A stretch of 35,208 nucleotides of DNA from Sedimentibacter hydroxybenzoicus DSM 7310 (GTDB lineage Bacteria > Bacillota > Clostridia > Tissierellales > Sedimentibacteraceae). A model generated the notes under the pieces. That model was not told the DNA's origin. It made no database searches and saw nothing but the letters and a program-made list of their open reading frames with translations. Shown piece by piece: positions 16,148-33,960 of this stretch (its first letter is position 1; every line of letters begins with the position of its first letter). The position numbers and the translations under genes were made by a program. The stretch spans positions 1-35,208 of the forward strand of contig NZ_JACBNQ010000030.1 of NCBI RefSeq assembly GCF_013403245.1. The letters run 5' to 3'.

Positions 16148-16354
16148 ATGAAATGTCATAGATGTGGCTCGGATAATGTTAGAAAAATGGTAGATTCTCC
16201 TGTGGGAGATGCCTGGGAAGTTTATGTATGTGAAAAATGCTGTTATTCATGGCGTTCAACGGAGAATCCCGTTGTTATGGAGAAATTTAAATTAGATGAT
16301 AATAAAATTGCAAATATGGGCGTAATACCGCCTATACCACCCTTGAAAAAATAG
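16148..16354 (+). CDS. shdD: Hydroxyarylic acid decarboxylase small subunit D
   Basis: Small protein of 68 aa, 14 bp behind shdC with its own GGAGG. It has two CxxC pairs, CHRCGS at the N-terminus and CEKCCYSW near residue 29, which should form a zinc ribbon. SPVGDAWEVYVCEKCCYSWRS matches the BsdD/VdcD family, followed by a proline-rich tail (GVIPPIPPLKK). In Bacillus and Sedimentibacter-type systems B, C and D are all needed for full activity; the exact role of D is not settled. Its presence separates this system from plain UbiD/UbiX pairs. Confidence 0.92.
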   Translation: MKCHRCGSDNVRKMVDSPVGDAWEVYVCEKCCYSWRSTENPVVMEKFKLDDNKIANMGVIPPIPPLKK

Positions 16355-18473: not shown

Positions 18474-19301
18474 TTGAAGGGTTTATTATCGGTTGGTGAA
18501 ATGGCTAAAATTCACAGCATCTCCAGGCAGACTCTTATTCACTATGATAAAATCGGTCTGTTTAAACCAATAGTTGTTGACGAAAATGGATATCGTTATT
18601 ACAGCTTCAACCAAATTCCTTTTTTAAGAGAAATTTGTTATCTTAAATCCGTAGGCATAAAGCTGAAATATATAAAAAAACACATAGAAAACAGAAACCT
18701 CGATTCATCAATTTCGTTACTGAGATATCATAAAGATTTTTTAGGCAGAGAAATACAAAAAATGCTGACAATACATGATTCAATAGAAAATCGAATTAAA
18801 GCTTATGAAAAAGTTGAAGATAAAAATCAAGAATTATACTTACCCACAATAGAGTATTTTCCTGAGAGAAGAGTGGTATTCCTTCCTTATGAGAACGAAT
18901 TATGTAAGGAAGAGCTTCATATTACAATGATGAAGGCATGGAGTATGCTTGAAATCAATAAAATTCAGCCATCCAACAGGTTTGGTACAATTATTCCGAA
19001 AAACAGTCTTGAAAAAAGCAATATATTTGAAGGAGCCGGTGTTTATATAATTTTAAACATCAATGATGATTCAGAATTAGAAAATGCCGTTACGCTGCCT
19101 GCAGGTAAGTATGCATGCATGTACAAATATGGAATGCCATATCAAAAAGAATATTTATGTTCTCTTATTAAGTGGATAGAAGAGAATGAATACACTATTG
19201 CCGGTGATATAATAGATGAATGCATACTGGACAGTACATTTTACAAAAACAGCACCGACGTTGATTTTTGTCAATTACAAATACCTGTAGAGAAATATTA
19301 A
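18474..19301 (+). CDS. MerR-family transcriptional activator with effector-binding domain
   Basis: The protein has 275 aa with a TTG start preceded by GGAGGTAATATTA. The MerR winged HTH (5-75) shows LLSVGEMAKIHSISRQTLIHYDKIGL and GYRYYSFNQIPFLREI. A dimerising helix (about 80-120) and a C-terminal GyrI/BmrR-like effector domain (about 130-275) follow, so it senses an organic ligand rather than a metal; no metal-binding cysteine cluster is seen. A MerR-type operator-promoter lies nine bases downstream of its stop, in front of the lpdC-type gene, which makes that gene its likely target. It is probably co-transcribed with the lysR gene. Confidence 0.93.
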   Translation: MKGLLSVGEMAKIHSISRQTLIHYDKIGLFKPIVVDENGYRYYSFNQIPFLREICYLKSVGIKLKYIKKHIENRNLDSSISLLRYHKDFLGREIQKMLTIHDSIENRIKAYEKVEDKNQELYLPTIEYFPERRVVFLPYENELCKEELHITMMKAWSMLEINKIQPSNRFGTIIPKNSLEKSNIFEGAGVYIILNINDDSELENAVTLPAGKYACMYKYGMPYQKEYLCSLIKWIEENEYTIAGDIIDECILDSTFYKNSTDVDFCQLQIPVEKY

Positions 19302-19340: not shown

Positions 19341-19368
19341 AATGTTAAATGATTTTCAGGAGGCAGTT

Positions 19369-20829
19369 ATGAATAAAGTAACAGATTTAAGGTCTGCAAT
19401 AGAGTTGTTAAAAACTATTCCGGGCCAATTAATTGAGACAAATGAGTCGGTAAATCCTATGGCAGAACTATCCGGTGTATACCGTCATATAGGTGCGGGA
19501 GGAACAGTCATGCGTCCTACGAAAATAGGTCCTGCCATGATATTTAACAATGTTAAAGGACATGAAGATGCAAGAGTTATAATCGGACTATTGGCAAACA
19601 GAGAAAGAGTAGGGATTATGCTTGATACAAAGCCGGAAAAACTAGGTTTTCTGTTGAACGAATCAGTTAAAAATCCTATTGATCCAATCGTTATTTCCAA
19701 TGAATTTGCAAAGTGTCAGGAAGTGGTTCATTATGCGGATGAACCGGGATTTGATATAAGAAAATTAGTTCCTGCACCGACAAATACGGAGGAAGATGCA
19801 GGACCGTATATAACTATGGGCATGTGCTATGCATCTGACATAGAAACAGGAGAATCCGATGTTACAATACATAGATTATGCTTACAAAGCGAGGATGAAA
19901 TTTCTATGTATTTTGTTCCGGGAGCCAGACATTTGGATGTATTTCGCGAAAAAGCAGAAAAAGAGGGAAAACCGCTGCCGATTTCAATCAGTATAGGTGT
20001 GGATCCTGCTGTTGAAATTGCTGCTTGTTTTGAGCCGCCTACTACTCCGTTAGGGTTTAATGAACTCAGTATAGCAGGGGCAATACGAAATAAACCTGTA
20101 GAATTGGTAAATTGCTTAACAATAAATGAAAAAGCAATTGCAAATGCAGAATATGTAATAGAAGGAGAACTGATTCCGGGAAGATATGTAAGAGAAGATC
20201 AAAATACAAATACAGGGAAGGCGATGCCGGAATTTCCGGGATATACCGGTGAAGCAATCGAAAAAACACCGGTTATTAAAGTTAAGGCGGTTACTCACAG
20301 GAGAAATCCTATTATGCAGACTATTATAGGACCGAGTGAAGAGCATGTGAATTTAGCAGGCATACCTACAGAAGCAAGCGTAATCCAAATGATAGAAAAG
20401 GCAATGCCGGGAAGACTGTTAAATGTATACGCGCATTCCTCGGGAGGCGGAAAATATATGGCTGTATTGCAGTTTAAAAAGCTTAAGCAATCGGACGAAG
20501 GCAGGCAAAGACAGGCTGCACTATTGGCATTTTCGGCATTCCCCGAATTAAAGCATATCATAATAGTAAGTGAAGATGTAGATCCTTTTGACACCAATGA
20601 TGTTTTATGGTCAATGAATACAAGATATCAAGGTGATGTAGATACAATATTTATACCGGGTGTCAGGTGTCACCCCTTAGATCCGTCTCAAAGCCCGGAA
20701 TACAATGCTTTATTAAAAGATAAAGGAATGTCCTGCAAAACAATTTTCGATTGTACTGTACCCTTTAATTTAAAAGAAAAATTTGAAAGATCTAAATTTA
20801 TGGATGTTGATATAGAAAGATTTATGTAA
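19369..20829 (+). CDS. lpdC: UbiD-family decarboxylase of the LpdC (gallate/protocatechuate) class
   Basis: The protein has 486 aa. From memory it follows Lactobacillus plantarum LpdC closely: NPMAELSGVYRHIGAGGTV, GPAMIFNNVKG, PTNTEEDAGPYIT, FEPPTTPLGFNELSIAGAIRN, NTNTGKAMPEFPGY, IIGPSEEHVNLAGIPTEAS, QRQAALLAFSAFPELK and DTNDVLWSMNTRYQ. R169 (TIHR) and E288 (MPEFPGY) are conserved. The usual first glutamate of EGPFGEF is replaced by the TGKAM segment, as in LpdC. The enzyme should decarboxylate gallate or 3,4-dihydroxybenzoate. The ATG at 19369 has AGGAGG upstream; the in-frame ATG at 19342 lies at the promoter -10 and is excluded. It is controlled by the MerR-type promoter. Confidence 0.9.
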   Translation: MNKVTDLRSAIELLKTIPGQLIETNESVNPMAELSGVYRHIGAGGTVMRPTKIGPAMIFNNVKGHEDARVIIGLLANRERVGIMLDTKPEKLGFLLNESVKNPIDPIVISNEFAKCQEVVHYADEPGFDIRKLVPAPTNTEEDAGPYITMGMCYASDIETGESDVTIHRLCLQSEDEISMYFVPGARHLDVFREKAEKEGKPLPISISIGVDPAVEIAACFEPPTTPLGFNELSIAGAIRNKPVELVNCLTINEKAIANAEYVIEGELIPGRYVREDQNTNTGKAMPEFPGYTGEAIEKTPVIKVKAVTHRRNPIMQTIIGPSEEHVNLAGIPTEASVIQMIEKAMPGRLLNVYAHSSGGGKYMAVLQFKKLKQSDEGRQRQAALLAFSAFPELKHIIIVSEDVDPFDTNDVLWSMNTRYQGDVDTIFIPGVRCHPLDPSQSPEYNALLKDKGMSCKTIFDCTVPFNLKEKFERSKFMDVDIERFM

Positions 20830-20890: not shown

Positions 20891-20963
20891 ATTTCGGAAT
20901 CCATGAATTTTGTACGGATATTAAATACAATTGGCAGAAAATAAGTATTATTTAGAGGATGAA

Positions 20964-21737
20964 ATGATTAACGATGATGATAAATATTTAATGAGTTCTG
21001 TTAACAATACTTTGGAAATTTTAGATTTACTCAGCTTACATGACGAACTTGGTGTATCTGAAATCAGTAAAGCTACAAATTTCGGAAAAGCGAGCGTATT
21101 CAGAATGTTGTATACGCTTGAAAAAAAAGGTTTTGTTCATAAAACATCTGACTCGAAGTATAAGCTGGGTATTAAATTTGCTCATTTTGGTGCTATTGTT
21201 TTAGAAAAACAAAATATTTTTACTTTGATAAGACCTTTTTTACAAAAACTTAGAGATAAACATAATGAAACAACTCATTTGGGAATATTGGACAGCGACC
21301 TGAATGTCATTTTCATGGTTAAGGAAGCCAGCAATAACACAATACAAATGGCATCAAGAGTCGGATATAAATTACCATTTTATGCAACAGCCATGGGCAA
21401 GGTTTTAGTAGCCAGCAAGCTGAGTGAAGAATTGGAAGAGAGATTAAAAAATTACGATTATAATCAATTCACAGAGCATACAATTACAAATCACGAAAAA
21501 CTTATAGAAATGTTGAAGCTGGTTGAACAGCAGGGATACAGTGAGGATGACGAGGAAAGTGAATATGGATTAGTTTGCTTTGCCGCACCGATAAAGGATT
21601 TGACCGGACAAACTATAGCTGCAATCAGTATATCGGGAACCTATATGAGGATGAATAACAATAAGGAAGAACTTATAAAATCAATAAAGGAAACAGCATA
21701 TGAAGTATCAGCCTCTTTAGGGTATAAGGAAAATTAG
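20964..21737 (+). CDS. IclR-family transcriptional regulator
   Basis: The protein has about 257 aa. The N-terminal winged HTH reads SSVNNTLEILDLLSLHDELGVSEISKATNFGKASVFRMLYTLEKKGFV. The C-terminal IclR effector domain shows THLGILDSDLNVIFMVKEA, LPFYATAMGKVLVASK, GYSEDDEESEYGLVCFAAPI and IAAISISG. ATG 20964 has AGAGG five bases upstream; TTG 20931 is an in-frame alternative with a poor ribosome binding site. IclR proteins bind palindromes near the operons they control and sense carboxylic acids such as pyruvate, glyoxylate or aromatics. The next operon (2-oxoacid oxidoreductase, TRAP) is its probable target, with two palindromes in the intervening DNA. Confidence 0.93.
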   Translation: MINDDDKYLMSSVNNTLEILDLLSLHDELGVSEISKATNFGKASVFRMLYTLEKKGFVHKTSDSKYKLGIKFAHFGAIVLEKQNIFTLIRPFLQKLRDKHNETTHLGILDSDLNVIFMVKEASNNTIQMASRVGYKLPFYATAMGKVLVASKLSEELEERLKNYDYNQFTEHTITNHEKLIEMLKLVEQQGYSEDDEESEYGLVCFAAPIKDLTGQTIAAISISGTYMRMNNNKEELIKSIKETAYEVSASLGYKEN

Positions 21738-21752: not shown

Positions 21753-21784
21753 AAAAATGCAGTAATTATTAACTGCATTTTTTT
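21753..21784 (+). terminator. Terminator of the iclR gene
   Basis: AAAAATGCAGT (21753-21763) pairs with ACTGCATTTTT (21772-21782), followed by more T. It separates iclR from the next operon. Confidence 0.88.
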
Positions 21785-21808: not shown

Positions 21809-21833
21809 CATTGTTTCTCTAAGAGAAACGATG
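21809..21833. promoter_or_regulatory. Upstream palindrome, candidate activator site
   Basis: Arms CATTGTTTCTCT (21809-21820) and AGAGAAACGATG (21822-21833) surround a single central A, with one mismatch in twelve. The site ends 22 bp before the -35 of the oxidoreductase operon, a position suited to an activator. The GTTTC/GAAAC arms resemble sites of IclR-family proteins such as KdgR, from general knowledge. Confidence 0.6.
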
Positions 21834-21855: not shown

Positions 21856-21884
21856 TTGACAATTGTATTCACCATATTTATAAT
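21856..21884 (+). promoter_or_regulatory. Consensus promoter of the 2-oxoacid oxidoreductase operon
   Basis: TTGACA (21856-21861), a 17-bp spacer, and TATAAT (21879-21884) form a full sigma-A consensus. The start is predicted near 21891, about 80 bp before the first ATG. Confidence 0.85.
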
Positions 21885-21890
21885 ATTAAT

Positions 21891-21908
21891 TATAAAAACG
21901 TTTTTATA
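21891..21908. promoter_or_regulatory. Perfect palindrome at the predicted transcription start, candidate repressor operator
   Basis: TATAAAAACGTTTTTATA is an exact 18-bp palindrome centred on CG, covering about +1 to +18. A protein bound here would block the consensus promoter. The CG-centred form is like LacI/CcpA operators, but the flanking G and C of a cre site are missing. Confidence 0.6.
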
Positions 21909-21971
21909 TTATTAACTTAAATTTTTTGATTTGCATTTTATAAAAAATGGGAAAGAAGGGACAAAGCAAAT

Positions 21972-22523
21972 ATGATTAGTATTAAATTTTATGGGTTAGG
22001 AGGACAAGGTGTTGTAACAGCAGGAAAAATATTTTCTGAAGCAATATCATTGTATGAAGATAAATATGCAATTACTGTACCTGCCTATGGTCATGAAAGA
22101 CGTGGTGCACCTGTAAATACGAGTATCATTGTAGATGAAAAGCCTGTGCTTATAAACTCTTTTGTTTATCATCCGGATATTGTATTAGTAATGGATAGCA
22201 CTATTATTGACAAAGATATAGATATTTCCCAAGGTATACATGAGAATAGTATTTTAGTTTTGAATACTGAAGATGTAAATGTGGTTAATACATACAAAAA
22301 GTATAACTTTAAAGAAATTTATTACGTAGATGGTACACAAATCGCCTTAAATAATATAGGCAGAGGTATACCAAACGGATCTATGTTAGGAGCTATAGCA
22401 GGGACAGGCCTTTTAACCATAGAATCAATTGAAAAAGCAATTATAGAATCATTTGGAGAAAAGGCGGGTGAAAAAAATGCAAAAGCAGCAAGAGAAGCAT
22501 TCGAAAGAGTTAAAAAAATGTAG
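21972..22523 (+). CDS. 2-oxoacid:ferredoxin oxidoreductase, gamma subunit
   Basis: Gamma (PorC-type) subunit of 183 aa. The Rossmann-like start IKFYGLGGQGVVTAGKIFSEAI is typical, followed by YGHERRGAPVNTSIIVDEKPV and a C-terminal GMLGAIAGTGL-like segment (NGSMLGAIAGTGLLTIESIEKAI). The complex oxidatively decarboxylates a 2-oxo acid with CoA, giving acyl-CoA, CO2 and reduced ferredoxin. It is the first gene behind the consensus promoter at 21856. It overlaps the delta gene by about 47 bp. The order gamma-delta-alpha-beta is that of pyruvate and 2-oxoisovalerate enzymes; the substrate is not fixed by sequence alone. Confidence 0.92.
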   Translation: MISIKFYGLGGQGVVTAGKIFSEAISLYEDKYAITVPAYGHERRGAPVNTSIIVDEKPVLINSFVYHPDIVLVMDSTIIDKDIDISQGIHENSILVLNTEDVNVVNTYKKYNFKEIYYVDGTQIALNNIGRGIPNGSMLGAIAGTGLLTIESIEKAIIESFGEKAGEKNAKAAREAFERVKKM

Positions 22524-22782
22524 AGTTCTTGGACCTGTTGCCACAATCTTTGCAAGTTCAACCACGGGAAGCTGGAGGCTGGAAAGACCTGTTATAGATT
22601 ACGAAAAATGCATAAAATGCGGAACGTGCGAAAGATTTTGTCCTACAAACGTTATAGATGTTTATAAAGACAGAGCAGAATGTGTGGTAATAAATTATGA
22701 TTATTGTAAAGGCTGTGGCATTTGTGTTAATGAATGTCCTTCTAAATGTATGAAAATGATACCGGAAAGAGGTGAAGAATAA
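22477..22782 (+). CDS. 2-oxoacid:ferredoxin oxidoreductase, delta (ferredoxin) subunit
   Basis: Two-cluster ferredoxin subunit (PorD type) of 101 aa. CIKCGTCERFCP and CKGCGICVNECP bind two [4Fe-4S] clusters that carry electrons from the catalytic site to soluble ferredoxin. The N-terminus has the PorD-specific stretch STTGSWRLERPVIDYEKC. I take ATG 22477, preceded by GCGGGTGA, inside the gamma gene; TTG 22453 is an in-frame alternative. The stop overlaps the alpha start as TAATG. Confidence 0.9.
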   Translation: MQKQQEKHSKELKKCRVLGPVATIFASSTTGSWRLERPVIDYEKCIKCGTCERFCPTNVIDVYKDRAECVVINYDYCKGCGICVNECPSKCMKMIPERGEE

Positions 22783-23987
22783 TGGTTTTTAAAATGCTTG
22801 ACGGAAATGAAGCAGCAGTAGAGGCCATGAAGCTTGCCAGAGTTCAAGTGATTTCCGCATATCCCATAACTCCGCAAAGCTCTATTTCGGAAAAATTGTC
22901 GGATTTGGTGGCTGCAGGAGAATTAAAAGCTGAATATGTACGTGTTGAATCTGAACACACTGCGTTGTCTGTTGCAACGACGGCAGGTTTAACAGGAGTG
23001 AGAGCGGCAACGGCAACTGCTTCTAACGGATTGGCTTTAATGCATGAAATTTTAAGTATGACTTCTGGAAACAGAGTGCCGATTGTAATGCCAGTTGTTA
23101 ACAGGGGTGTGGCTGCTCCTTGGACGTTATGGTGTGAGCACGGAGATGCTATGGCGCAAAGAGATATGGGATGGCTGCAATTTTATTGCCAGAATGTTCA
23201 GGAAGTATTGGACCTTACATTACTTGCATATAGGGTTGCTGAAGATGAAAGAGTATTAACGCCGGCAATGGTTTGCTTAGATGGTTTCTTCTTATCACAT
23301 TCAATGCAAAAGACACAAGTTCCTGAACAAAGGTTAGTTGATGATTTTATCGGACCATATATAAGAAAAAATACATATATAGATCCTGATGACCCAATGT
23401 TTTGCTGTGATTTAACCGGCTCTGATGAATTTACCGAAATGAGATACCAGCAAAAATATGCAATGGATAATTCTATTGATGTTATAGAAGAAATAGAAAA
23501 CGAATTCGAAATAAGATTCGGAAGGAAGCTGCATATTGTAGAAGGATATAAAACTGAGGATGCTGATGTTGTATTAGTTGCACTGGGCTCAATGTGCGGA
23601 ACTGCAAAATATGTAGTGGATAAAATGAGACAAGAGGGTAAAAAAGTCGGATTAGCGAAAGTAACAGTATTCAGACCGTTCCCGGTTAAACAGTTAAAAG
23701 AAGTTCTGAAAGGTAAAAAGGTAATCGGAGTTTTTGACAGAAGTGCCGGATTGGGCGGACAAGGCGGTCCTGTCTGGAGCGAAACTTCTGCACTGATGAT
23801 GAATGAAAATTGTGATATCAGGAATTATGTCGGAGGTCTTGGCGGGAGAGACGTAACGATTGATAATATTGAAAAGATATATAATGAACTTTTAGAGATT
23901 AAAGAAGGAAAAAGAACAGTACATACAGAATGGATTGACCTTAAAGAAAATCCAATGGAATTAAGGCAGGTGACTAAAAATGTTTGA
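22782..23987 (+). CDS. 2-oxoacid:ferredoxin oxidoreductase, alpha subunit
   Basis: Alpha (PorA-type) subunit of 401 aa, holding the pyrimidine-binding thiamine domain and the C-terminal transketolase domain. Motifs: GNEAAVEAMKLARVQVISAYPITPQSSISEKL, VRVESEHTALSVATTAG, ATASNGLALMHEIL and WCEHGDAMAQRDMGWLQFYCQNVQE. Domain II is marked by VVLVALGSMCGTAKYV and GVFDRSAGLGGQGGPVWSE. GGTGAAGAATA precedes the ATG; the stop overlaps the beta gene by 8 bp. The family includes pyruvate, branched-chain 2-oxoacid and phenylglyoxylate enzymes. The overall build is PorA/VorA-like. Confidence 0.93.
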   Translation: MVFKMLDGNEAAVEAMKLARVQVISAYPITPQSSISEKLSDLVAAGELKAEYVRVESEHTALSVATTAGLTGVRAATATASNGLALMHEILSMTSGNRVPIVMPVVNRGVAAPWTLWCEHGDAMAQRDMGWLQFYCQNVQEVLDLTLLAYRVAEDERVLTPAMVCLDGFFLSHSMQKTQVPEQRLVDDFIGPYIRKNTYIDPDDPMFCCDLTGSDEFTEMRYQQKYAMDNSIDVIEEIENEFEIRFGRKLHIVEGYKTEDADVVLVALGSMCGTAKYVVDKMRQEGKKVGLAKVTVFRPFPVKQLKEVLKGKKVIGVFDRSAGLGGQGGPVWSETSALMMNENCDIRNYVGGLGGRDVTIDNIEKIYNELLEIKEGKRTVHTEWIDLKENPMELRQVTKNV

Positions 23988-24885
23988 TATACAGCACAAA
24001 TCTAAGGGGTTAGTATCTCATGGAGTTAGCGCATGTGCCGGCTGCGGTTTGGAGTTGATAATGAGAAATGTAATGTCAGTACTGGGTGAAGATACAGTAA
24101 TATTGATACCACCGGGATGTTCGGCATTATTTTCCGGATATGGAAATGAATCAGGGTTGAAAATAGCAGGGTTTCAGGGTAATCTGGAGAATACGGCAGC
24201 ATGTGCGGCAGGTGTGAGAGCCGCTTTAAATGCTCAGGGAAATTATCACACTACAGTATTGGCATTTGCTGGCGATGGAGGAACTGTTGACATTGGCTTA
24301 CAAGCATTATCAGGTGTTTTGGAGAGAAGAGACAGAATAATGTATATATGCTATGACAATGAAGCTTATATGAATACAGGGATACAAGGAAGCAGTTCTA
24401 CCCCTTTCTTTGCGAGCACTACAACTACACCCTCGGGAAAACCTACAAGCAGAAAAAATTTAATGGAAATTGCTATAGCACATGATATTCCCTATGCAGC
24501 GACAGCTTCCATACATAATTTAAATGATTTTAAGAAAAAGCTTAAAAAAGCCATGGAAACAGACGGACCATCATTGATTCACATTCAAACCCCATGCCCT
24601 ACGGGTTGGAGATACGATCCCGGCAAATCGGTGGAATTAGCTAGATTAGCAGTTCAAACAGGAAGCTGGATTCTCTTTGAATATGAAGACGGTCGCGTAA
24701 CCATAAACAGCAAGCTTAAAGATTTAAAACCTATTACTGATTACATAGAAATACAAGGAAGATTTAAACATTTGACGGAAGAACAAAAAGCTGAACTTCA
24801 GGATTATACAGAGAAATATTATCACAGATATATTAAGAAGCTTGAAAATATGAACATTGAAACTGAGGAGCATGCGACTGCTTAA
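23980..24885 (+). CDS. 2-oxoacid:ferredoxin oxidoreductase, beta (TPP-binding) subunit
   Basis: Beta (PorB-type) subunit of 301 aa, binding the diphosphate of thiamine. GHG-type start HGVSACAGCGLELIMRNVMSVLG carries two cluster-binding cysteines (CAGC). The TPP motif is FAGDGGTVDIGLQALSGVLERRDRIMYICYDNEAYMNTG, of the GDG-x(n)-NN-like type. TPCPTGWRYDP is the PorB C-terminal segment. It overlaps the alpha gene and is the fourth gene of the operon. The dehydrogenase-type gene starts 35 bp downstream. Confidence 0.93.
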   Translation: MFDIQHKSKGLVSHGVSACAGCGLELIMRNVMSVLGEDTVILIPPGCSALFSGYGNESGLKIAGFQGNLENTAACAAGVRAALNAQGNYHTTVLAFAGDGGTVDIGLQALSGVLERRDRIMYICYDNEAYMNTGIQGSSSTPFFASTTTTPSGKPTSRKNLMEIAIAHDIPYAATASIHNLNDFKKKLKKAMETDGPSLIHIQTPCPTGWRYDPGKSVELARLAVQTGSWILFEYEDGRVTINSKLKDLKPITDYIEIQGRFKHLTEEQKAELQDYTEKYYHRYIKKLENMNIETEEHATA

Positions 24886-24920
24886 TGTTGGAAGTTTTCT
24901 GCAAGGGAGGAGAGTGAACA

Positions 24921-25850
24921 TTGAAAACTTTAATTTTAGGTGCAGGGGCTATGGGATGCTTGTATGGAGGTCTCTTAAAAGAGAGAGGTAATGATGTAAT
25001 CTTAGTTGACGTATCAAAGCCACAGGTGGATGAAATTAATAAAAACGGATTAGCATTAGAAACAGCCGAAGGAAAAAGGAATATAAAAATTAAAGCTAAA
25101 TTTGCACAAGAAGTAACTGAACAACCGGATTTGATAATTTTATTTACTAAAACAATTCACTCTAAGTCAGCTTTGTCATCTTTAAAAGCAATAATAGGAC
25201 CTGAAACAATGGTCCTATCATTGCAAAATGGTTTAGGAAACGATGAGGTAATTAAGGAATTTGTGCCGACAGACAGAATAATTATCGGAACGACAAATTT
25301 TCCGAGCGATTTGCTTAAACCGGGAAATGTAAGGTCATTAGGAAAAGGAACTACAAAAATTATGAGCTGTAACGGAGAAGTTACAGAAAAATTAAAACAG
25401 GTCGAAATGATGTTAAGTGATGCAGGCTTCAATTGTATCATAACAGAGGATGTATTTGTTTCAATTTGGGAAAAGGTTGCTTTTAATGCAGCTTGTAATG
25501 CATTGACGGCAGCTTCAAGGTTAAAACTTGGTGATGTGGGAAAAACAGATGAGGGTAAGGAGCTTGCCCGTTCGATAGCTAGGGAAGTAGTTTCGGTTGC
25601 AAATGCAAGAAATATTCATGCAAATGCGGAAAACGTTATAAAGCTTATTGAATTGGATTTTGTCGAGCATGCTGAGCATATGCCTTCAATGATGCAGGAT
25701 GTTCTTGGAAACAGGACAACAGAAATTGATTTTATAAATGGTGCTGTTGTAAGAGAGGCAGAAAAGTTAGGTATTAGTGTACCGGTAACGAACGTTCTTT
25801 ACAAACTTGTAAGCATGATTCAAAAAAATTATGAAAATTTAATTAAATAA
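24921..25850 (+). CDS. Ketopantoate reductase-family (ApbA/PanE) dehydrogenase
   Basis: The protein has 309 aa. The N-terminal Rossmann domain starts MKTLILGAGAMGCLYGGLL (GxGxxG), and FTKTIHSKSALSSL and LSLQNGLGNDEVI are ApbA signatures. The C-terminal domain has WEKVAFNAACNALTAASRL, with the catalytic lysine region, and HMPSMMQDVLGNRTTEIDFINGAVV. Characterised members reduce ketopantoate to pantoate with NADPH. Here it lies inside a 2-oxoacid degradation operon with no panB or panC, so it more likely interconverts another 2-hydroxy and 2-oxo acid. The start is TTG with GGAGGAGAGTGAACA upstream. dctP follows 13 bp later. Confidence 0.88.
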   Translation: MKTLILGAGAMGCLYGGLLKERGNDVILVDVSKPQVDEINKNGLALETAEGKRNIKIKAKFAQEVTEQPDLIILFTKTIHSKSALSSLKAIIGPETMVLSLQNGLGNDEVIKEFVPTDRIIIGTTNFPSDLLKPGNVRSLGKGTTKIMSCNGEVTEKLKQVEMMLSDAGFNCIITEDVFVSIWEKVAFNAACNALTAASRLKLGDVGKTDEGKELARSIAREVVSVANARNIHANAENVIKLIELDFVEHAEHMPSMMQDVLGNRTTEIDFINGAVVREAEKLGISVPVTNVLYKLVSMIQKNYENLIK

Positions 25851-25863
25851 TTCGGAGGATATT

Positions 25864-26913
25864 ATGAAATTTAAAACTGCAACATTATCAATAATTCTTG
25901 TAATATTAATGGTTTTAGGAACAGCATGCGGCGGTGGAGGAAATGCTTCTCAACCTGCAAATAACAATAACCAGGCATCGAATAATCAACCAAGCAGCGG
26001 CAAAGCAACCGTAATAAAGCTTGCTCATATGTCACCGGAATTACCGGATGATGCATATCATATGTTCGCATTAAGATATAAAGAGGCTATAGAATCAAAA
26101 ACAAACGGAAGATTTGAAGTTGAGCTTTATCCTGCAGGCGTATTAGGAAAAGACAGGGAATTAGCAGAGGGATTACAATATGGAACAGTGGATTTAGCAG
26201 TAATTACATCTTCTCCAATGGGTAATTTCGTACCTGCATTCCAAACATTGGATTTACCTTTCTTATTTGACAACTGGGAACACGTATACAGATTTTTAGA
26301 ATCAGATGCAGCGGAAGAATTGTATAAAGAAACCGAAAGTGCGGGAATCATAACGTTCGGACTTATTGCAAGGGGACCGAGAAGTGTAACTAACTCCGGC
26401 AAGGCCATTGAATCGGTTGAAGGACTGAAAGGCATGAAAATAAGAGTTATAGAAAGCTCTATATTTGTTGATACATTCACAGCTTTGGGAGCTGCTCCTC
26501 AGGCGATGTCATGGGGTGAAGTATTTACTGCTTTACAACAGGGTACTATAGACGGACATGAAAACTCAATAGCTACAATCAATAACGAACGTGTTTATGA
26601 AGTACAGGATAATGTTTCTTTAACGGAACACATCTTTGCATTCACTACGGCACATGCGTCAAAAATGTTCTGGGATACATTAAGTGCTGAAGATCAAAAA
26701 TTATTTAAGGAAACTGCAAAAGAAATAACTATACAGATTTCTAAAGAACAAGAGAAAGCGGAAGAAGATTTCTTAGGAAGATTAAAAGCAGCAGGAATGA
26801 ACATATATGAAATAGACAGAGCTCCTATGAGAGAGATGGTTAATTCAGTTTATGAAAAGTTTGCAAAATCAAATACTGATAAATACTTTAAAGCTATAGA
26901 AGAATTAAAATAG
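25864..26913 (+). CDS. dctP: TRAP transporter substrate-binding lipoprotein (DctP family)
   Basis: Extracytoplasmic binding protein of 349 aa. The signal peptide ends in LGTAC (C22), a lipobox, followed by a Gly/Asn/Gln-rich linker. The DctP domain shows KLAHMSPELPDDAYHMFALRYKEAIESKTNGRFEVELYPAGVLG, RELAEGLQYGTVDLAV, DLPFLFDNWEHVYRFL, LKGMKIRVIESSIFVDTFTALGA and EVFTALQQGTIDGHENSI. R191-like arginine in MKIRV would bind the carboxylate of the ligand. Ligands of the family are organic acids. GGAGG precedes the ATG. It is followed by a strong hairpin, then the two membrane subunits. Confidence 0.94.
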   Translation: MKFKTATLSIILVILMVLGTACGGGGNASQPANNNNQASNNQPSSGKATVIKLAHMSPELPDDAYHMFALRYKEAIESKTNGRFEVELYPAGVLGKDRELAEGLQYGTVDLAVITSSPMGNFVPAFQTLDLPFLFDNWEHVYRFLESDAAEELYKETESAGIITFGLIARGPRSVTNSGKAIESVEGLKGMKIRVIESSIFVDTFTALGAAPQAMSWGEVFTALQQGTIDGHENSIATINNERVYEVQDNVSLTEHIFAFTTAHASKMFWDTLSAEDQKLFKETAKEITIQISKEQEKAEEDFLGRLKAAGMNIYEIDRAPMREMVNSVYEKFAKSNTDKYFKAIEELK

Positions 26914-26929
26914 CAAACATTACATCTAA

Positions 26930-26962
26930 GTTAAGCTAAGATATTTAATATCTTAGCTTAAC
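26930..26962 (+). promoter_or_regulatory. Strong intercistronic hairpin between dctP and dctQ
   Basis: GTTAAGCTAAGATAT (26930-26944) and ATATCTTAGCTTAAC (26948-26962) form a perfect 15-bp stem with a 3-base loop and no U run. It may protect the dctP message or attenuate the permease genes, giving more binding protein than transporter. Confidence 0.8.
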
Positions 26963-26987
26963 AAATAAACGGTAACAAGGAGGAACT

Positions 26988-27476
26988 ATGAAAATCATTC
27001 TTTCTGTCAGCAATCTTTTGGATAGTGTTATAAAAAAAATAATTTCAGTTTTATTGATGATAATGACAGTAGTTTTATTCAGTCAGATAATAGCAAGATA
27101 TGTAATGGGAACCGGCTTATCCTGGAGTGAAGAATTAGTCAGATATATGTGCGTATGGATAATTTTTTTAGGTGCAACCTGTGCTACAAAAGATGGCAGC
27201 CAAATTTCGGTGACAGCTCTTGATGAAATGTTAAGAGGTATTCCGAAAAAAATACTCTCCATTATACAAATGATTTTTGCTGTTGTTTATGGAGTTTTGT
27301 TAAGCTGGATTGGTTTTGGCGCTTTAGAATTTGCAAAGTTTCAAAAATCACCAAACATGGGAGTTTCCATGGGATTGGTTTATAGTGTTATTCCGATAGC
27401 GATGATAATAATGTTGATTCATTTGGTAACTATATTTTTACAAAAAAATATAGCTGCTGAAGAAGCTCATGAGTAA
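26988..27476 (+). CDS. dctQ: TRAP transporter small permease (DctQ family)
   Basis: Small membrane subunit of 162 aa with four helices, the usual DctQ form. Typical segments: IIARYVMGTGLSWSEELVRYMCVWIIFLGATCATKDGSQISVTALDEML in pieces across about 30-80, and a last helix near 135-152. It pairs with the DctM channel subunit. AAGGAGG lies six bases before the ATG. DctM begins 16 bp downstream. Confidence 0.93.
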   Translation: MKIILSVSNLLDSVIKKIISVLLMIMTVVLFSQIIARYVMGTGLSWSEELVRYMCVWIIFLGATCATKDGSQISVTALDEMLRGIPKKILSIIQMIFAVVYGVLLSWIGFGALEFAKFQKSPNMGVSMGLVYSVIPIAMIIMLIHLVTIFLQKNIAAEEAHE

Positions 27477-27492
27477 TTAAGGAGGTATGTAA

Positions 27493-28794
27493 ATGTCTAC
27501 AGGTATGTTTTTTGCTTTGACAGGCGGGTTGCTAATTGTAGGTGTACCTATTGCAATTACTGTGGGGCTGTCTTCAATTATATATATATTAGCAGAAGGT
27601 ATCAAGGTGCAAATAGTTGTTCAAAGGTTATTTGCGGGTGTTGATGTTACTGCATTGCTTGCAATTCCTTTCTTTATATTGGCCGGTGATTTAATGGGTA
27701 AGGGAGGAATAGGCTACCGTCTTGTAAGATTGGCCAACAGAGCTGTTGGTAACATAACAGGCGGGCTTGCTATTGTTGCAATTATAGTTAGTATGTTTTT
27801 TGCGGCAATTTCCGGAAGCGGGGTTGCAACAGCAGCGGCAATAGGCGGAATTATGATTCCGGGAATGGTAGCTGCAAAATATGATAAATCTTTTTCAGCT
27901 GCGGTTATAGCAAGTGCGGCACCGATAGGTGTTATTATCCCGCCAAGCATATCATTCGTTCAATACGGTGTTTTAACCGGCACCTCAATATCGGATTTAT
28001 ATAAAGCGGGTTTTCCTGCCGGCTTTATTGTAGGCGGCGCTCTTATGCTAACGGCTTATCTGATAAGCAAGAAAAACGGATACAAGGGAGCCGACAGATT
28101 GGAAAATACTCATGCTAAATCTGAAGCAGCAGTAGCGGCAGACAATAAATATTCTTCAAAGGATATAATAGAAGTTTTATGGGCTTTGGGTACTCCGTTT
28201 ATAATAGTTGGGGGAGTTTTCGGCGGACTGTTCACTCCTACGGAATCAGCCGTTGTAGCAGTTGTTTATGCACTTTTAGTTGGTTTGTTTGTTTTTAAAG
28301 AATTAAATTTTAAAAATTTACCTGAAATATTCATGAATTCGGCGTTGGGCTCAGCAAGGATAATGTTTATTATAGCTAATGCCACATTATTCTCATGGGT
28401 AATGGCTTATGAAAGAATTCCGCAAATTATAATGGAATCTATGCTTGCTTTGTCTGACAGCAAATTTGTATTGTTATTAATTATTAACTTTATATTATTA
28501 ATAGCGGGTTGCTTTATGGAAACAGGTTCAATTATCCTTATTGCAACACCATTATTACTTCCGATAATGCAATTCTTAAACATTGATTTAGTTCATTTTG
28601 GAATTATTATGACTGTTAATACGGCGATAGGATTAACTACACCACCGTTTGGAGTGTGCTTATTTACAACGGCCAATGTCGCCAAGTTAAGTGTACAAGC
28701 CGTCGCGAGCAAGGTATGGTGGTTCTTGTTAGCTATGATAATAGCATTGATGATTATAACTTATGTGCCACAAGCGATTTTATTCTTGGTGTAA
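27493..28794 (+). CDS. dctM: TRAP transporter large permease (DctM family)
   Basis: Large membrane subunit of 433 aa, twelve to thirteen helices, driving Na+-coupled uptake. Motifs: FFILAGDLMGKGGIGYRLVRLANRAVGNITGGL, FFAAISGSGVATAAAIGGIMIPGM, AAPIGVIIPPSISFVQYG, TPTESAVVAVVYAL and GLTTPPFGVCLF. GGAGG precedes the ATG by eight bases. It completes the P-Q-M transporter encoded just behind the oxidoreductase and dehydrogenase genes. Confidence 0.95.
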   Translation: MSTGMFFALTGGLLIVGVPIAITVGLSSIIYILAEGIKVQIVVQRLFAGVDVTALLAIPFFILAGDLMGKGGIGYRLVRLANRAVGNITGGLAIVAIIVSMFFAAISGSGVATAAAIGGIMIPGMVAAKYDKSFSAAVIASAAPIGVIIPPSISFVQYGVLTGTSISDLYKAGFPAGFIVGGALMLTAYLISKKNGYKGADRLENTHAKSEAAVAADNKYSSKDIIEVLWALGTPFIIVGGVFGGLFTPTESAVVAVVYALLVGLFVFKELNFKNLPEIFMNSALGSARIMFIIANATLFSWVMAYERIPQIIMESMLALSDSKFVLLLIINFILLIAGCFMETGSIILIATPLLLPIMQFLNIDLVHFGIIMTVNTAIGLTTPPFGVCLFTTANVAKLSVQAVASKVWWFLLAMIIALMIITYVPQAILFLV

Positions 28795-28848
28795 TATAAC
28801 TTAATTAAGATGTCTCCACCTCTTATAGTCAGCGGTTGTGCTTAATTT

Positions 28849-28878
28849 TTTCAGTGGGAGTTTAATCTTCCACTGAAA
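28849..28878 (+). promoter_or_regulatory. Hairpin between dctM and ptb
   Basis: TTTCAGTGG (28849-28857) pairs with CCACTGAAA (28870-28878). No U run follows on either strand. It could be a processing site or a weak terminator. The remaining gap, 28879-28994, shows no clear promoter. Confidence 0.5.
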
Positions 28879-28994
28879 CCGTTGAATAATGGGCGAAGAC
28901 AGTATTGAATGGATAGTAGAGAATTAATTGTTCCCTGCTATTTTAACAAAAATATTGAAATAGTATATATTTAATTGTGTAAGGAGGTATTTGA

Positions 28995-29888
28995 TTGATT
29001 AAAAATTTTGAACATTTATTGAAATTGGCAAAACAAAAGGAATCAAAGAAAGTTGCAGTAGTTGCTGCAGACGATTTAGAAGTATTAGAAGTTATTTCAA
29101 AAGCTGAAGAGTTAAATTTAGCAGAATTTATATTAATAGGCGATATGAATAAAATGAAAAAAATCATAGAAGAAAATTCATTAAATATAAAATCGGAACT
29201 AGCGGACGAAAAGGATCATAAAAAAGCTGCTGATTTGGCGGTAGATCTGATAGTGCAAGGTAAAGCCGGTTCTTTAATGAAAGGAATGCTTCACTCTTCC
29301 GTCTTTTTAAAAGCTATATTAAATAAGGAAAAAGGCTTAAATACAGGCAGACATATTACTCAAATTTCAGTTTTAGAAAAAGAAAATAAAGATGGATTGC
29401 TGTTTATTACAGATTGTGCCATAACAGTTAATCCTGATTTGCTAGGTAAAAAAGAGGTTCTCGAAAATGCTGTTGATTTGGCTCACAAGCTTGGAAATGA
29501 AATGCCTAAGGTTGCCGTATTGGCATCTCTTGAAGTTGTAAATCCTGATATGCAGGATACCATAGATGCGGCAGTATTAAGCAAAATGGCTGACAGGGGA
29601 CAAATCAAAGGTTGTATAGTAGACGGACCGTTTGCATTTGACAACGCTGTTTCCTCAGAGGCAGCTAAACAAAAAGGTATAGTCGGTCCCGTTGCGGGCA
29701 ATTCGGATATAATAGTTGTTCCCAATTTAACCGTAGGTAACACCTTAACTAAATCAATAACCTACATAGCTAAGAAAACTGTTATAGCTGCTACGGTTGG
29801 TGCGGCAATTCCCGTAGTATTTACATCAAGGACCGAATCCTTGGAAGGAAAGCTTCTTTCTATTGCATTGGCAGCATATACTTCGTAA
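28995..29888 (+). CDS. ptb: Phosphate butyryltransferase-type acyl-CoA phosphotransferase
   Basis: The protein has 297 aa, in the PTA/PTB family. It converts an acyl-CoA and phosphate to acyl phosphate and CoA. Motifs: KGMLHSSVFLKAILNKEKGLNTGRHITQIS, ITDCAITVNPDL, RGQIKGCIVDGPFAFDNAVS, VAGNSDIIVVPNLTVGNTLTKSI. TTG is the start, with AAGGAGGTATTTGA upstream. It is followed 22 bp later by buk, the usual ptb-buk pair. In context the acyl-CoA would come from the 2-oxoacid oxidoreductase, so the natural substrate may be isobutyryl-, isovaleryl- or a related CoA rather than butyryl-CoA. Confidence 0.92.
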   Translation: MIKNFEHLLKLAKQKESKKVAVVAADDLEVLEVISKAEELNLAEFILIGDMNKMKKIIEENSLNIKSELADEKDHKKAADLAVDLIVQGKAGSLMKGMLHSSVFLKAILNKEKGLNTGRHITQISVLEKENKDGLLFITDCAITVNPDLLGKKEVLENAVDLAHKLGNEMPKVAVLASLEVVNPDMQDTIDAAVLSKMADRGQIKGCIVDGPFAFDNAVSSEAAKQKGIVGPVAGNSDIIVVPNLTVGNTLTKSITYIAKKTVIAATVGAAIPVVFTSRTESLEGKLLSIALAAYTS

Positions 29889-29910
29889 TTATTATAAAAA
29901 GAGGTGACTT

Positions 29911-30996
29911 ATGTACAAGATATTAGTTTTAAATTTGGGTTCGACATCCACTAAAATTGCTTATTATGAAGATGAAGCATGCATAATAAAAACAAATATA
30001 GAACATCCTGCTGAAGAAATTAAGCAATTTAATCATTTTATGGAACAAAATAAATATCGTGAAAATTATATTAAAAAATTCATGTCTGAAAATAATGTTG
30101 ATATAAGTGAATTAGATGTTATAGTAAGCAGGGGTGGACATACAAAACCGTTGGAAGGCGGGGTTTACAGAGTATGCGAAGAAATGCTTGAACAGCAGGC
30201 AAGCGGATTGTATGGACAGCATCCTTGCGATTTAGGGAGTAAAATCGCATATGGAATGTGCGAAAGGATAAAGGCTATACCACTCGTGGTTGATCCACCC
30301 ATAACCGATGAGTTTGAACCGTTGGCAAGATTGTCAGGACATCCTCTCATTGAAAGAAGAAGCAGCTTTCATGCTTTGAGTCATAAAGCTACGGCAAAAA
30401 GATATGCAAGAGAAAACGGATTGAAATATGATGAATTAAACTTAATTGTTGTTCACTTAGGCGGGGGAGTATCCGTTGCTCCACATGGTAAAGGAAGAAT
30501 GATTGATGGAGATAATGGACTAGAAGGCGATGGAGCTTATTCAACAAATCGTACGGGAGCTCTGCCGGTAGGGGATTTAGTTAAATTGTGTTTTTCCGGT
30601 GAATATTCATATGAACAAGTCAAAAAGATGATTAACGGAAATGGCGGATTAATGGCATACCTTGGAGAAAGTGATGTTAAAACAATTGAAAGCAATGCAA
30701 AGCACGACGAAAAAGCTGCTTTGTATTTAGACGGAATGGTTTACCAGGTATGCAAAAACATTGGTTCATGTGCAACTGTATTATATGGTAAAGTAGATGC
30801 AATATTAGTAACAGGCGGCATAGCATATTCAAGCAGTATAGTACAGAAAATTAAAGACAGATGTGAATTCATTGCCCCTGTTGTGGTATATCCGGGTGAA
30901 AATGAAATGGAATCATTGGCTAGAGGTGCGTTTGGAGGGCTTAAAGGTGATGAACCCATAAGAAATTTCAATGAATCAACAACAGTAACGGCTTAA
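29911..30996 (+). CDS. buk: Butyrate kinase-type acid kinase
   Basis: Acetate/butyrate kinase family (ASKHA fold), 361 aa, full length. It makes ATP from acyl phosphate. Motifs: ILVLNLGSTSTKIAYYED (phosphate 1), SRGGHTKPLEGGVYRV, ERRSSFHALSHKATAKRYA, LIVVHLGGGVSVAPHGKGRMID (phosphate 2) and ILVTGGIAYSS (adenosine). GAGGTGA precedes the ATG. It lies directly behind ptb. A truncated paralogue follows. Confidence 0.95.
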   Translation: MYKILVLNLGSTSTKIAYYEDEACIIKTNIEHPAEEIKQFNHFMEQNKYRENYIKKFMSENNVDISELDVIVSRGGHTKPLEGGVYRVCEEMLEQQASGLYGQHPCDLGSKIAYGMCERIKAIPLVVDPPITDEFEPLARLSGHPLIERRSSFHALSHKATAKRYARENGLKYDELNLIVVHLGGGVSVAPHGKGRMIDGDNGLEGDGAYSTNRTGALPVGDLVKLCFSGEYSYEQVKKMINGNGGLMAYLGESDVKTIESNAKHDEKAALYLDGMVYQVCKNIGSCATVLYGKVDAILVTGGIAYSSSIVQKIKDRCEFIAPVVVYPGENEMESLARGAFGGLKGDEPIRNFNESTTVTA

Positions 30997-31026: not shown

Positions 31027-31058
31027 ATAAGCGGCAATTATCTAATATTGCTGCTTAT
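31027..31058 (+). terminator. Hairpin after buk, weak terminator
   Basis: ATAAGCGGCAAT (31027-31038) pairs with ATTGCTGCTTAT (31047-31058), with one G-T pair. It is followed by ATTTTA, a poor U run. Confidence 0.55.
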
Positions 31059-31122
31059 ATTTTACCTACAGTATAAGCGACTGACATCAAATAAGATGAA
31101 AAACTAAGAAAGGGTGAAGCTC

Positions 31123-31539
31123 TTGTCTAAAAGAATACTTGTATTAAATTTGGGCTCAACATCGACTAAAATTGCTATTTTTGAAAATACAATTCCGATT
31201 ATTAAAGAGTCTATATTGCATGAAGTTGAAACAATAAAACAATTTAAACATACGATGGATCAAAAAAACTTCAGGAAGAATATTATTCTTAATTATTTAG
31301 CTCATAAGAGTATAAATATAGAAAATTTTGATTGTATTATCGCCCGGGGAGGTAACTGCAAACCTTTATCGAGCGGTATTTATAAAATAACAGAGGAAAT
31401 GCTTGATGATATTAAAAGTGAAAGAACAGGAGTGCATCCTGTTTCTTATAGGAGAAGAGATGGAAAAGTCATATTAATAAAATACTTAGAGAAAGGCTCT
31501 GACCGTCATTCAACGGTTCCGGCGGAAGATTGCGTTTAA
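31123..31539 (+). pseudogene. Truncated second butyrate kinase
   Basis: A 138-residue frame whose first 110 or so residues are a clear paralogue of the preceding butyrate kinase: KRILVLNLGSTSTKIAIFEN, IKQFKHTMDQ, CIIARGGNCKPLSSGIYKITEEML and GVHPVS. After that the similarity stops abruptly, and about 28 unrelated residues (starting YRRRDGK, ending STVPAEDCV) run to a TAA. The phosphate-2, adenosine and catalytic regions, about 240 residues, are missing, so kinase activity is not expected. TTG 31123 behind AAAGGGTGA gives the normal N-terminus. I cannot recognise the missing part in 31540-31794 in any frame. Confidence 0.8.
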
Positions 31540-33673: not shown

Positions 33674-33708
33674 GTGTATTAATATTTAAGATTAATATTT
33701 AATGCATC

Positions 33709-33960
33709 GAAGCAGAGAAAAGTATTTCAGAGGTTTACAGAGAATTGGCGGTGCTGAGAGCCAATGACTGAGGAATATAATATACACTGCTGAGCAGGTT
33801 TGTTGAAATTAAAGTAGGCAAACACGTTAACCTACGTTACAGGGTTAGAGGTTGTTAGACCTTGATGAGCGATGATATTTATATATCATAATATGGGTGG
33901 TACCGCGGAAACTTTCGTCCCAATAAACACATTTGTGTTTATTGGGATTTCTTATTTTTT
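33709..33960 (+). promoter_or_regulatory. T-box riboswitch, specifier probably UAC (tyrosine)
   Basis: Stem I has base AGCAG (33711-33715) with CTGCT (33787-33791) and a distal stem ATTGGC/GCCAAT with a loop carrying GGTG (GNUG motif, 33750-33753). The specifier position, one A before the closing stem, reads TAC (33783-33785). The T-box sequence TGGGTGGTACCGCGG is at 33894-33908. Uncharged tRNA should stabilise the antiterminator and switch on the transporter. The TAC reading is by hand folding; ACA or ATA are less likely alternatives. No TGG lies in the specifier region. Confidence 0.9.
33919..33960 (+). terminator. T-box terminator
   Basis: CCCAATAAACAC (33919-33930) pairs with GTGTTTATTGGG (33935-33946), followed by ATTTCTTATTTTTT. 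Its left arm follows the T-box sequence, as expected for the terminator/antiterminator switch. Confidence 0.9.

Follow-up and report, generated by a model that had tools for sequence, protein, structure and literature searches.

A candidate operon for fermenting aromatic 2-hydroxy acids behind the hydroxybenzoate decarboxylase genes of Sedimentibacter hydroxybenzoicus

The anaerobic mandelate/phenylglyoxylate route of aromatic degraders uses the phenylglyoxylate:acceptor oxidoreductase PadEFGHI. A homoacetogen studied by Doerner and Schink in 1991 is said to ferment mandelate to benzoate and acetate, and we know of no genes for this fermentation. The Pad genes are named in PMC4148979. UbiD enzymes of the VdcC class take off the carboxyl group attached to a phenolic ring (PMC8379154, in part), and VdcCD of Sedimentibacter hydroxybenzoicus has been assayed on 4-hydroxybenzoate and vanillate in published work. 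Here we analysed 35,208 nucleotides of S. hydroxybenzoicus DSM 7310 (contig NZ_JACBNQ010000030.1, positions 1 to 35,208 of the forward strand; 'the window'), in which an operon sits behind the genes of two hydroxybenzoate-type decarboxylases and an IclR regulator. We propose, with rather more confidence than doubt, that this operon serves to ferment an aromatic 2-hydroxy acid.

The operon is a ten-gene run of about 9.1 kb on the plus strand. It encodes, in order, the gamma, delta, alpha and beta subunits of a 2-oxoacid:ferredoxin oxidoreductase (KOR), an ApbA/PanE-family dehydrogenase, the P, Q and M components of a tripartite ATP-independent periplasmic (TRAP) importer, a phosphotransacylase (Ptb) and a carboxylate kinase (Buk). 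Every gene is an open frame on that strand with a family match in profile searches, bearing out the gene set, order and single strand given by an earlier reading made from the letters of this DNA (the sequence-only reading). From promoter to terminator, the parts are:

21856–21884, plus strand: exact sigma-70 consensus promoter, TTGACA-17-TATAAT (12/12 bases)
21972–22523, plus strand: KOR gamma subunit (TIGR02175, 162 bits, cutoff 81)
22453–22782, plus strand: KOR delta subunit, 2[4Fe-4S] ferredoxin type (TIGR02179, 91 bits, cutoff 60; scanned from 22552)
22782–23987, plus strand: KOR alpha subunit (POR_N 227 bits, PFOR_II 103 bits)
23980–24885, plus strand: KOR beta subunit, binding thiamine pyrophosphate (TPP_enzyme_C, 86 bits)
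24921–25850, plus strand: ApbA/PanE-family dehydrogenase (TIGR00745, 270 bits, cutoff 141; PF02558, PF08546)
25864–26913, plus strand: TRAP solute-binding lipoprotein (P), DctP type (dctP, 209 bits, cutoff 175)
26988–27476, plus strand: TRAP small permease (Q) (YiaM model only, 57.5 bits, cutoff 260)
27493–28794, plus strand: TRAP large permease (M) (TIGR00786 dctM, 401 bits, cutoff 268)
28995–29888, plus strand: Ptb-type phosphotransacylase (TIGR02706, 339 bits, cutoff 410.5; PF01515 above cutoff)
29911–30996, plus strand: Buk-type carboxylate kinase (TIGR02707, 443 bits, cutoff 289)
31027–31058, plus strand: intrinsic terminator-like stem of 12 pairs, 3' of buk

The adjoining gamma, delta, alpha and beta genes make KOR a four-subunit PorABCD/VorABCD-type enzyme. 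Delta probably starts at the ATG at 22477, the MQKQQEKH start being common to two of the loci described below (L148 and L149). All three TRAP components lie within 25864–28794, Q being recognised through its below-cutoff YiaM match only. Buk passes the butyrate kinase model, and the best Ptb scores fall below the cutoffs of the butyryl-specific models.

Such a set very probably takes a 2-hydroxy or 2-oxo acid to an acid plus ATP. As to the kind of acid, the balance tips towards an aryl substrate. TRAP would import a mandelate-type 2-hydroxy acid (4-hydroxymandelate, 3,4-dihydroxymandelate or vanillylmandelate), and the ApbA-family enzyme would oxidize it with NAD+ to the arylglyoxylate. KOR would then form hydroxybenzoyl-CoA, CO2 and reduced ferredoxin, and Ptb followed by Buk would pass the hydroxybenzoyl group through hydroxybenzoyl phosphate to hydroxybenzoate and ATP. 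Finally, VdcCD or the AroY-type enzyme, both encoded 1–7 kb upstream and served with prenylated flavin mononucleotide (prFMN) by UbiX, would convert hydroxybenzoate to phenol, guaiacol or catechol. The TRAP ligand and the substrates assigned to the four enzymes (ApbA, KOR, Ptb, Buk) are inferred, as is the membership of the decarboxylase step in this pathway in S. hydroxybenzoicus, where its genes lie outside the run of the operon.

We searched for KOR beta in 391 genomes of the class (five others at E ≤ 1e-80) and 249 genomes of the phylum (seven others at E ≤ 1e-90); searches in the order of genome G490 (151 genomes) and the order of G270 (six genomes) gave nothing new. All 12 other KOR loci were read, one of them (L148) being a 4.4 kb contig. 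Their gene contents are:

L149 and L150 (one family): IclR, TRAP, KOR, Buk, Ptb, DASS-like carrier
L159: KOR, ApbA, TRAP, Buk, Ptb
L122: M20-type amidohydrolase, ApbA, Buk, UbiD1, VdcD, LpdD-like, UbiX, KOR, Ptb
L161 and L162 (one genus): TRAP, ApbA, KOR, acyl-CoA ligase, UbiD1, VdcD, LpdD-like
L163: IclR, KOR, acyl-CoA ligase, UbiD1, VdcD, DASS carrier
L148: KOR, Ptb, contig end
L165: IclR, KOR, DASS-like carrier, Buk, Ptb
L160: IclR, KOR pieces, Buk fragment, UbiD and UbiX pieces (8639–10346 for the Buk–UbiD–UbiX part)
L151: KOR, condensation-domain protein, aminotransferase
L164: KOR, hydrolase- and ABC-like genes (by reading), Ptb 5 kb away

The set thus recurs in other families, never in quite the same order, with KOR beside TRAP and/or ApbA and accompanied by ptb/buk or by an ADP-forming-type acyl-CoA ligase. 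Ptb and/or Buk accompany KOR in L122, L149, L150, L159, L148 (Ptb, at the contig end), L160 (the Buk fragment) and L165. In L161, L162 and L163, two of them from one genus, the ligase stands instead of Ptb–Buk, whose role we take it to fill. In L161 and L163 its domains are of the CoA-binding, Succ_CoA_lig and ATP-grasp types (L162 by near-identity to L161), and it scores below all equivalog cutoffs of ADP-forming acyl-CoA ligases. The reaction order proposed by the sequence-only reading (2-hydroxy acid, 2-oxo acid, acyl-CoA, acyl phosphate, then acid plus ATP) gains support from these recurring neighbourhoods, from the replacement of ptb–buk by the ligase in three loci and from a parallel TRAP–KOR–2-hydroxyacid dehydrogenase–ptb–buk locus in the same genome (L205, below). 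Among the carriers, that of L163 passes the DASS model and that of L150 misses it, those of L149 and L165 being named by reading. The KOR of L151 may supply an aryl building block for a natural product; the same locus holds a 443-residue protein without a Pfam match.

What points to aryl substrates is the company of decarboxylases at five of the 12 loci. The corresponding genes of the window, with the regulators among them, are:

14691–16133, plus strand: UbiD1, identified as VdcC, large subunit of the prFMN-dependent hydroxyarylic acid decarboxylase (NF041204, 757 bits, cutoff 650)
16148–16354, plus strand: VdcD zinc-ribbon activator subunit, 68 residues, the open reading frame behind UbiD1
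16399–16968, plus strand: UbiX flavin prenyltransferase, which makes prFMN (TIGR00421, 225 bits, cutoff 109)
16961–17338, plus strand: LpdD-like/PAC_bac small protein, a frequent UbiD/UbiX companion (PF21758, 117 bits; 16961 is the first ATG of a frame that opens at TTG 16916)
17529–18440, plus strand: LysR-family regulator (PF00126, PF03466)
18474–19301, plus strand: MerR-type regulator (PF13411)
19342–20829, plus strand: UbiD2, AroY-type 3,4-dihydroxybenzoate (protocatechuate) decarboxylase (best PDB match 5o3n, E = 1.6e-197)
20931–21737, plus strand: IclR-family regulator, probably of the operon (KdgR, BhcR and PcaR-type models, all below cutoff)

UbiD1 and the VdcD frame together make up a VdcC/VdcD hydroxyarylic acid decarboxylase. 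Its VdcC is identical at 480 of 480 residues to the crystallised hydroxybenzoate/vanillate decarboxylase 7ae4, deposited as ShVdcCD of S. hydroxybenzoicus (PMC8379154, in part). Intact VdcC and VdcD genes lie within the KOR run in four of the 12 loci (L122, L161, L162 and L163; three genera, three families and two KOR clades), each with a VdcD homologue 46–50% identical to that of the window directly behind UbiD1. A fifth locus, L160, retains remnants of an AroY-type UbiD2 and of UbiX behind KOR–Buk: its Buk fragment is joined in frame to 26 AroY-like UbiD residues, and UbiX pieces follow, so that the locus is either decayed or an assembly fault. Suppose that UbiD acts on the acid that Buk or the ligase sets free: the CoA ester would then be hydroxybenzoyl-CoA, the KOR substrate hydroxyphenylglyoxylate and the dehydrogenase substrate hydroxymandelate, each step narrowing the choice for the one before it in the pathway.

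UbiD1 is rare in the class (4 of 391 genomes, the window's included). At 65% identity or more, it occurs in only five of the 13 KOR-bearing genomes (G000, G490, G899, G973 and G766), once in each, and these five copies always lie with KOR, in the window at a distance of 5.8 kb. In two of the four class genomes (L180 and L181), UbiD1 lies with UbiX and no KOR is found within about 20 kb. Within the class sample, UbiD1 was present in two of six KOR-positive genomes vs 2 of 385 others (P = 0.0012 with the window, 0.038 without it); without the window, this co-occurrence is weak. Across all KOR-bearing genomes the counts were 5/13 vs 2/385 (P = 3e-7), a comparison that pools the class sample with the phylum sample and includes one genus twice; with each genus counted once and the window left out, they were 3/11 vs 2/385 genomes (P = 0.00016), with the same class/phylum mixture.

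UbiD2 is mostly an independent module, given that 77 of its 79 loci in a scan of genome contigs are without KOR by search. Across these loci it is accompanied by UbiX, LpdD-like, MerR or LysR genes, MerR-type genes 33–59% identical to that of the window lying near it in many. In L069 (Blautia sp. An249, 3–11473), KOR, ApbA and an LpdD-like gene form an unbroken run 5–10 kb before UbiX and UbiD2 and on the same strand as these. The KOR is of VorB type (409 bits against a cutoff of 399), and we read the arrangement as no more than a hint of an independent KOR–ApbA–UbiD pairing. In L102, a regulator gene and two large genes separate UbiD2 from a KOR (39–43% identity) that lies 7–8 kb before it. 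Two UbiD2-type genes lie 2–4 kb apart in both L076 and L102.

KOR alpha reaches 486 bits on pyruvate synthase PorA (PorA_Arch, equivalog cutoff 550), 356 on the phenylglyoxylate dehydrogenase subunit PadG (cutoff 700) and 122 on VorB, the 3-methyl-2-oxobutanoate model (cutoff 399); the PadI model gives 245 (cutoff 700), which leaves the enzyme outside PadEFGHI. In our main rival explanation, which we consider unlikely, the operon would ferment branched-chain 2-hydroxy or 2-oxo acids (2-hydroxyisovalerate, 2-hydroxyisocaproate or 2-hydroxy-3-methylvalerate) to isobutyrate, isovalerate or 2-methylbutyrate plus ATP, with the decarboxylase neighbours coincidental. KOR beta fits it slightly better (351 bits on the 3-methyl-2-oxobutanoate model vs 341 on PorB, both below the cutoff of 405), the Ptb and Buk families are named after short-chain acids, and the genus ferments amino acids (PMC13064008). 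However, the VorB score of alpha is far below cutoff while two other KORs of the same genome pass that model, each with Ptb and Buk (L204, 547 bits; L205, 453 bits); Ptb stays below its butyryl-specific cutoff; and the intact or decayed hydroxybenzoate decarboxylases at five of 12 loci are left unexplained. A VorB label is itself no proof of substrate, as that model is also passed by the KOR encoded alongside ApbA and a UbiD cluster in L069. The branched acids named by the sequence-only reading are therefore less well supported, and branched-chain substrates would more naturally suit the VorB-type sets of L204 and L205.

The genome has ten POR_N matches, six PTA/PTB-family genes and four further KOR–Ptb–Buk sets (L202, L203, L204 and L205). 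L202 alpha passes the 2-oxoacid:acceptor model NF006412 (548 bits over 411), and L204 joins a VorB-type KOR to Ptb and Buk. L205 (1–10174) combines TRAP, a VorB-type KOR, a 2HADH-family D-2-hydroxyacid dehydrogenase, Ptb and Buk; this independent set follows the same logic as the window and so supports the scheme. A DUF6282 protein and a further, divergent protein resembling Buk are encoded there as well.

The dehydrogenase of the window is probably an NAD-dependent D-2-hydroxyacid dehydrogenase. Its closest solved structures are 8wl1, 8wl4, 8wl3 and, fourth (E = 6.3e-48), 3wfi, which we take to be the Enterococcus D-mandelate dehydrogenase of Miyanaga 2013. Like 3wfi and 8wl1, the window enzyme has an Asp where beta-2 ends (Asp30). 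An Asp in this position favours NAD over NADP, which suggests the same preference here. The Enterococcus D-mandelate dehydrogenase, of a family related to ketopantoate reductase, is highly active on both benzoylformate and 2-ketoisovalerate (PMC4230899, in part); with this activity range, the family evidence fits mandelate and branched acids equally. AlphaFold models made without an alignment had a mean predicted local distance difference test score of 34.2 for ApbA and 33.5 for the TRAP binding protein.

Could ApbA instead be a housekeeping ketopantoate reductase that lies here by chance? The family name would allow it, and no pan genes adjoin the genome's two further ApbA genes (both on contig C4) within the part of that contig that was read (L140). 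We regard this as scarcely credible, for the window enzyme falls below cutoff on all equivalog ketopantoate reductase models, the genome has those two further ApbA genes, Asp30 suggests NAD rather than NADP, and ApbA accompanies KOR in three other genera (L122; L159; L161/L162), in two of them together with TRAP. A fourth match of the ApbA search in this genome (contig C67) proved to be a glycerol-3-phosphate dehydrogenase.

Pantoate or ketopantoate, also put forward by the sequence-only reading, would require TRAP to import pantoate, ApbA to oxidize it to ketopantoate, a PanB encoded elsewhere to cleave that, and KOR–Ptb–Buk to ferment the 2-oxoisovalerate. In its favour are the ApbA family, two PanB genes in the genome, pantoate or erythronate as ligands of homologous binding proteins (PMC11668362, in part) and TRAP–ApbA–PanB clusters in relatives. 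We found TRAP, ApbA and PanB in one stretch in seven genomes (L124, L125, L127, L130, L131, L132 and L133), with PanB confirmed by Pfam in L124, L125, L130 and L133, folD-type genes in L125 and L130, and formate–tetrahydrofolate ligase in L127 and L131. These clusters probably encode a pantoate-degrading fermentation in which PanB would run backwards and the C1 units would yield formate and ATP. L133 also carries IlvD.

The window, however, has no PanB among its frames, and its proteins side with the KOR-linked copies. KOR-linked ApbA proteins (L122, L159, L161 and L162) are 46–54% identical to that of the window, whereas identity is 37–42% for the 12 linked to PanB, linkage here meaning a PanB gene in the same stretch of up to 20 kb; in a FastTree tree the window and the four KOR-linked proteins form one group (support 1.0) with the 12 outside it. 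ApbA loci L123 and L135 were left out of this linkage scan. The ApbA search gave 31 matches besides the window in the order (249 genomes) and five in 24 other genomes of the genus, none above 42% identity; all six others of the class search were fetched. No KOR was seen near the order's matches, 12 of the 31 covered as stretches of up to 20 kb and 17 as loci of a few kb, with two loci not included. The TRAP binding protein, too, is closer to KOR-linked than to PanB-linked copies, and its residue 170 is Arg in six of six KOR-linked proteins (the window included) and Asn in seven of eight PanB-linked ones. Moreover, one of the genome's PanB genes belongs to a separate locus with TRAP and 2-oxoacid dehydrogenase genes: L168 (1263–10822) holds, in one run, an SDR dehydrogenase, TRAP, 2-oxoacid dehydrogenase E1 and E2, PanB and an E3-like gene, and on its gene content is a second, different pantoate-type catabolic operon. 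Pantoate is thus disfavoured, and for the window operon we hold it to be very improbable; with the branched acids less well supported too, the substrates first proposed are probably not right. L126 and L128 each combine ApbA and PanB with an S58 peptidase, and L128 adds an SSF symporter, a set that looks like pantothenate import and breakdown; for L126, PanB was identified through BLAST alone. Both also have M20-like hydrolases and an aminotransferase-like gene (by reading).

As to the importer, carboxylate-holding residues defined in homologous binding proteins (PMC11668362, in part) are kept in the window protein as R173, R194 and N234, along with the aromatic W217, in an alignment read by eye; Arg152 of that source corresponds to R173, which is Arg in 15 of 15 rows. 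Sequence neighbours with ligands bind sugar acids (glucuronate and galacturonate; 4x8r and 4n8y), pantoate or erythronate, which does not decide the ligand, and the place of the window protein among KOR-linked ones in the tree is weakly supported (0.68). TRAP uptake is known for a benzoate derivative, 4-chlorobenzoate (PMC4996985, in part). The glucuronate and galacturonate binders among the closest binding proteins, and the proximity of KOR alpha to pyruvate synthase models, would fit yet another 2-hydroxy or 2-oxo acid (of sugar acid, lactate, oxalate or glyoxylate type) handled by the same cassette logic. We give this little weight, as no sugar-acid dehydratase or aldolase was recognised among the window frames and the decarboxylase linkage would go unexplained.

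Several results weigh against hydroxymandelate as the substrate. At seven of the 12 KOR loci, among them the 4.4 kb contig L148, the stretch read contains no decarboxylase, as the branched-chain explanation would have it, and the genomes concerned have no UbiD1 above 34% identity at E ≤ 1e-50, a search in which UbiD2 was not sought. In the window itself, UbiD1 lies 5.8 kb upstream of the operon, with LysR, MerR, UbiD2 and IclR between; the scarcity of KOR at UbiD2 loci counts on the same side, and at L061 and L089, the loci most like L069, the 3 kb upstream contains neither its KOR nor its ApbA. For KOR alpha, the pyruvate model gives a higher score than PadG does. The KOR of L203 (6182–15065) is more PadG-like (485 bits, below the cutoff of 700) and has its own divergent TRAP, Ptb and Buk, so that plain phenylglyoxylate may be the substrate of L203, a candidate phenylglyoxylate module. 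D-mandelate dehydrogenase-type enzymes also accept branched acids, and action of Ptb–Buk on an aroyl group finds no support in any result here. The residues of the KOR-linked binding proteins also vary: those of L149 and L150 lack N234, and those of L159, L161 and L162 have Ala in place of W217, so that a single ligand for all loci is unlikely.

The borders of the operon are marked by signals. Base 21856, where the sequence-only reading had its module start, is the first base of the exact TTGACA-17-TATAAT promoter. Promoter-like sites are not enriched in the region relative to shuffles (86 vs 74.0, standard deviation 10.2), nor are terminator-like sites (11 vs 9.9, standard deviation 3.2), so only the exact promoter match and the positions of the sites carry weight. 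A second stem (21753–21782), between the IclR gene and the operon, is placed on the minus strand by the scan; read on the plus strand, the same stem is followed by seven T. The widest gap of the run, 200 bases before ptb, holds a 10/12 promoter-like site. Directly before the promoter lies one further element:

21809–21833, no strand assigned: palindrome CATTGTTTCTCTAAGAGAAACGATG, 25 bases, a possible regulator-binding site

Its core has one match in the window vs 0.02 expected, and it is absent among the inverted repeats (at most the five longest of each) of five other upstream regions. The upstream region of L150 has a looser repeat with TTCTTATAGAGAAAC. IclR genes 38–50% identical to that of the window adjoin KOR in L149, L150, L160, L163 and L165.

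Behind the terminator, 31114–31539 holds a truncated buk paralogue, about 104 N-terminal residues followed by unrelated ones, which by its sequence is a decayed duplicate. Further downstream, a T-box leader (33698–33925, 133 bits) precedes a gene at 34031 for an ABC binding protein resembling TrpX (234 bits, model cutoff 390), probably serving amino-acid uptake under tRNA control.

All enzyme families of the operon are known and their combination seems new; a literature search limited to open-licence PMC papers found no description of this gene set. Whether the loci together represent an undescribed hydroxymandelate fermentation (import, oxidation, ATP formation via hydroxybenzoyl phosphate and decarboxylation) in two bioenergetic versions, one with Ptb–Buk and one with the ADP-forming acyl-CoA ligase, is in our judgement evenly balanced. 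Vanillylmandelate is a catecholamine end product. If true, the proposal would account for the presence in anaerobes of hydroxybenzoate decarboxylases whose own reaction yields no energy, energy being made one step earlier, and would give the classical decarboxylases of S. hydroxybenzoicus a physiological partner. Aroyl phosphates would join the intermediates of ATP-yielding fermentations, the TRAP–KOR–ATP cassette would be recognisable in genomes, and plant- or catecholamine-derived acids would be a source of phenol, catechol or guaiacol in sediments and guts.

Compared with known systems, the proposed pathway is like the PadEFGHI route in that a KOR-family enzyme would oxidize a ring-attached 2-oxo acid to an aroyl-CoA. 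It differs in that the acyl-CoA would here yield ATP and the acid would be decarboxylated, whereas there it feeds benzoyl-CoA reductase, and in that the window KOR alpha fails the PadG cutoff (356 vs 700 bits). With the mandelate fermentation reported for the homoacetogen, the chemistry would be the same as far as the aromatic acid, but no decarboxylation is said to occur there. VdcBCD/ShdBCD of S. hydroxybenzoicus (PMC8379154) shares the identical VdcC with the window, but is treated in the available part of that source as a stand-alone decarboxylase, with no energy-yielding operon mentioned. TRAP–ApbA–PanB clusters likewise have TRAP and ApbA close together, but carry PanB and in some cases C1 enzymes instead of KOR–Ptb–Buk, and their ApbA proteins form a separate group. 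Finally, KOR–Ptb–Buk oxidative branches of the Stickland type also lead from a 2-oxo acid to an acid plus ATP; to these the window operon, like L205, adds a dedicated TRAP importer and a 2-hydroxyacid dehydrogenase.

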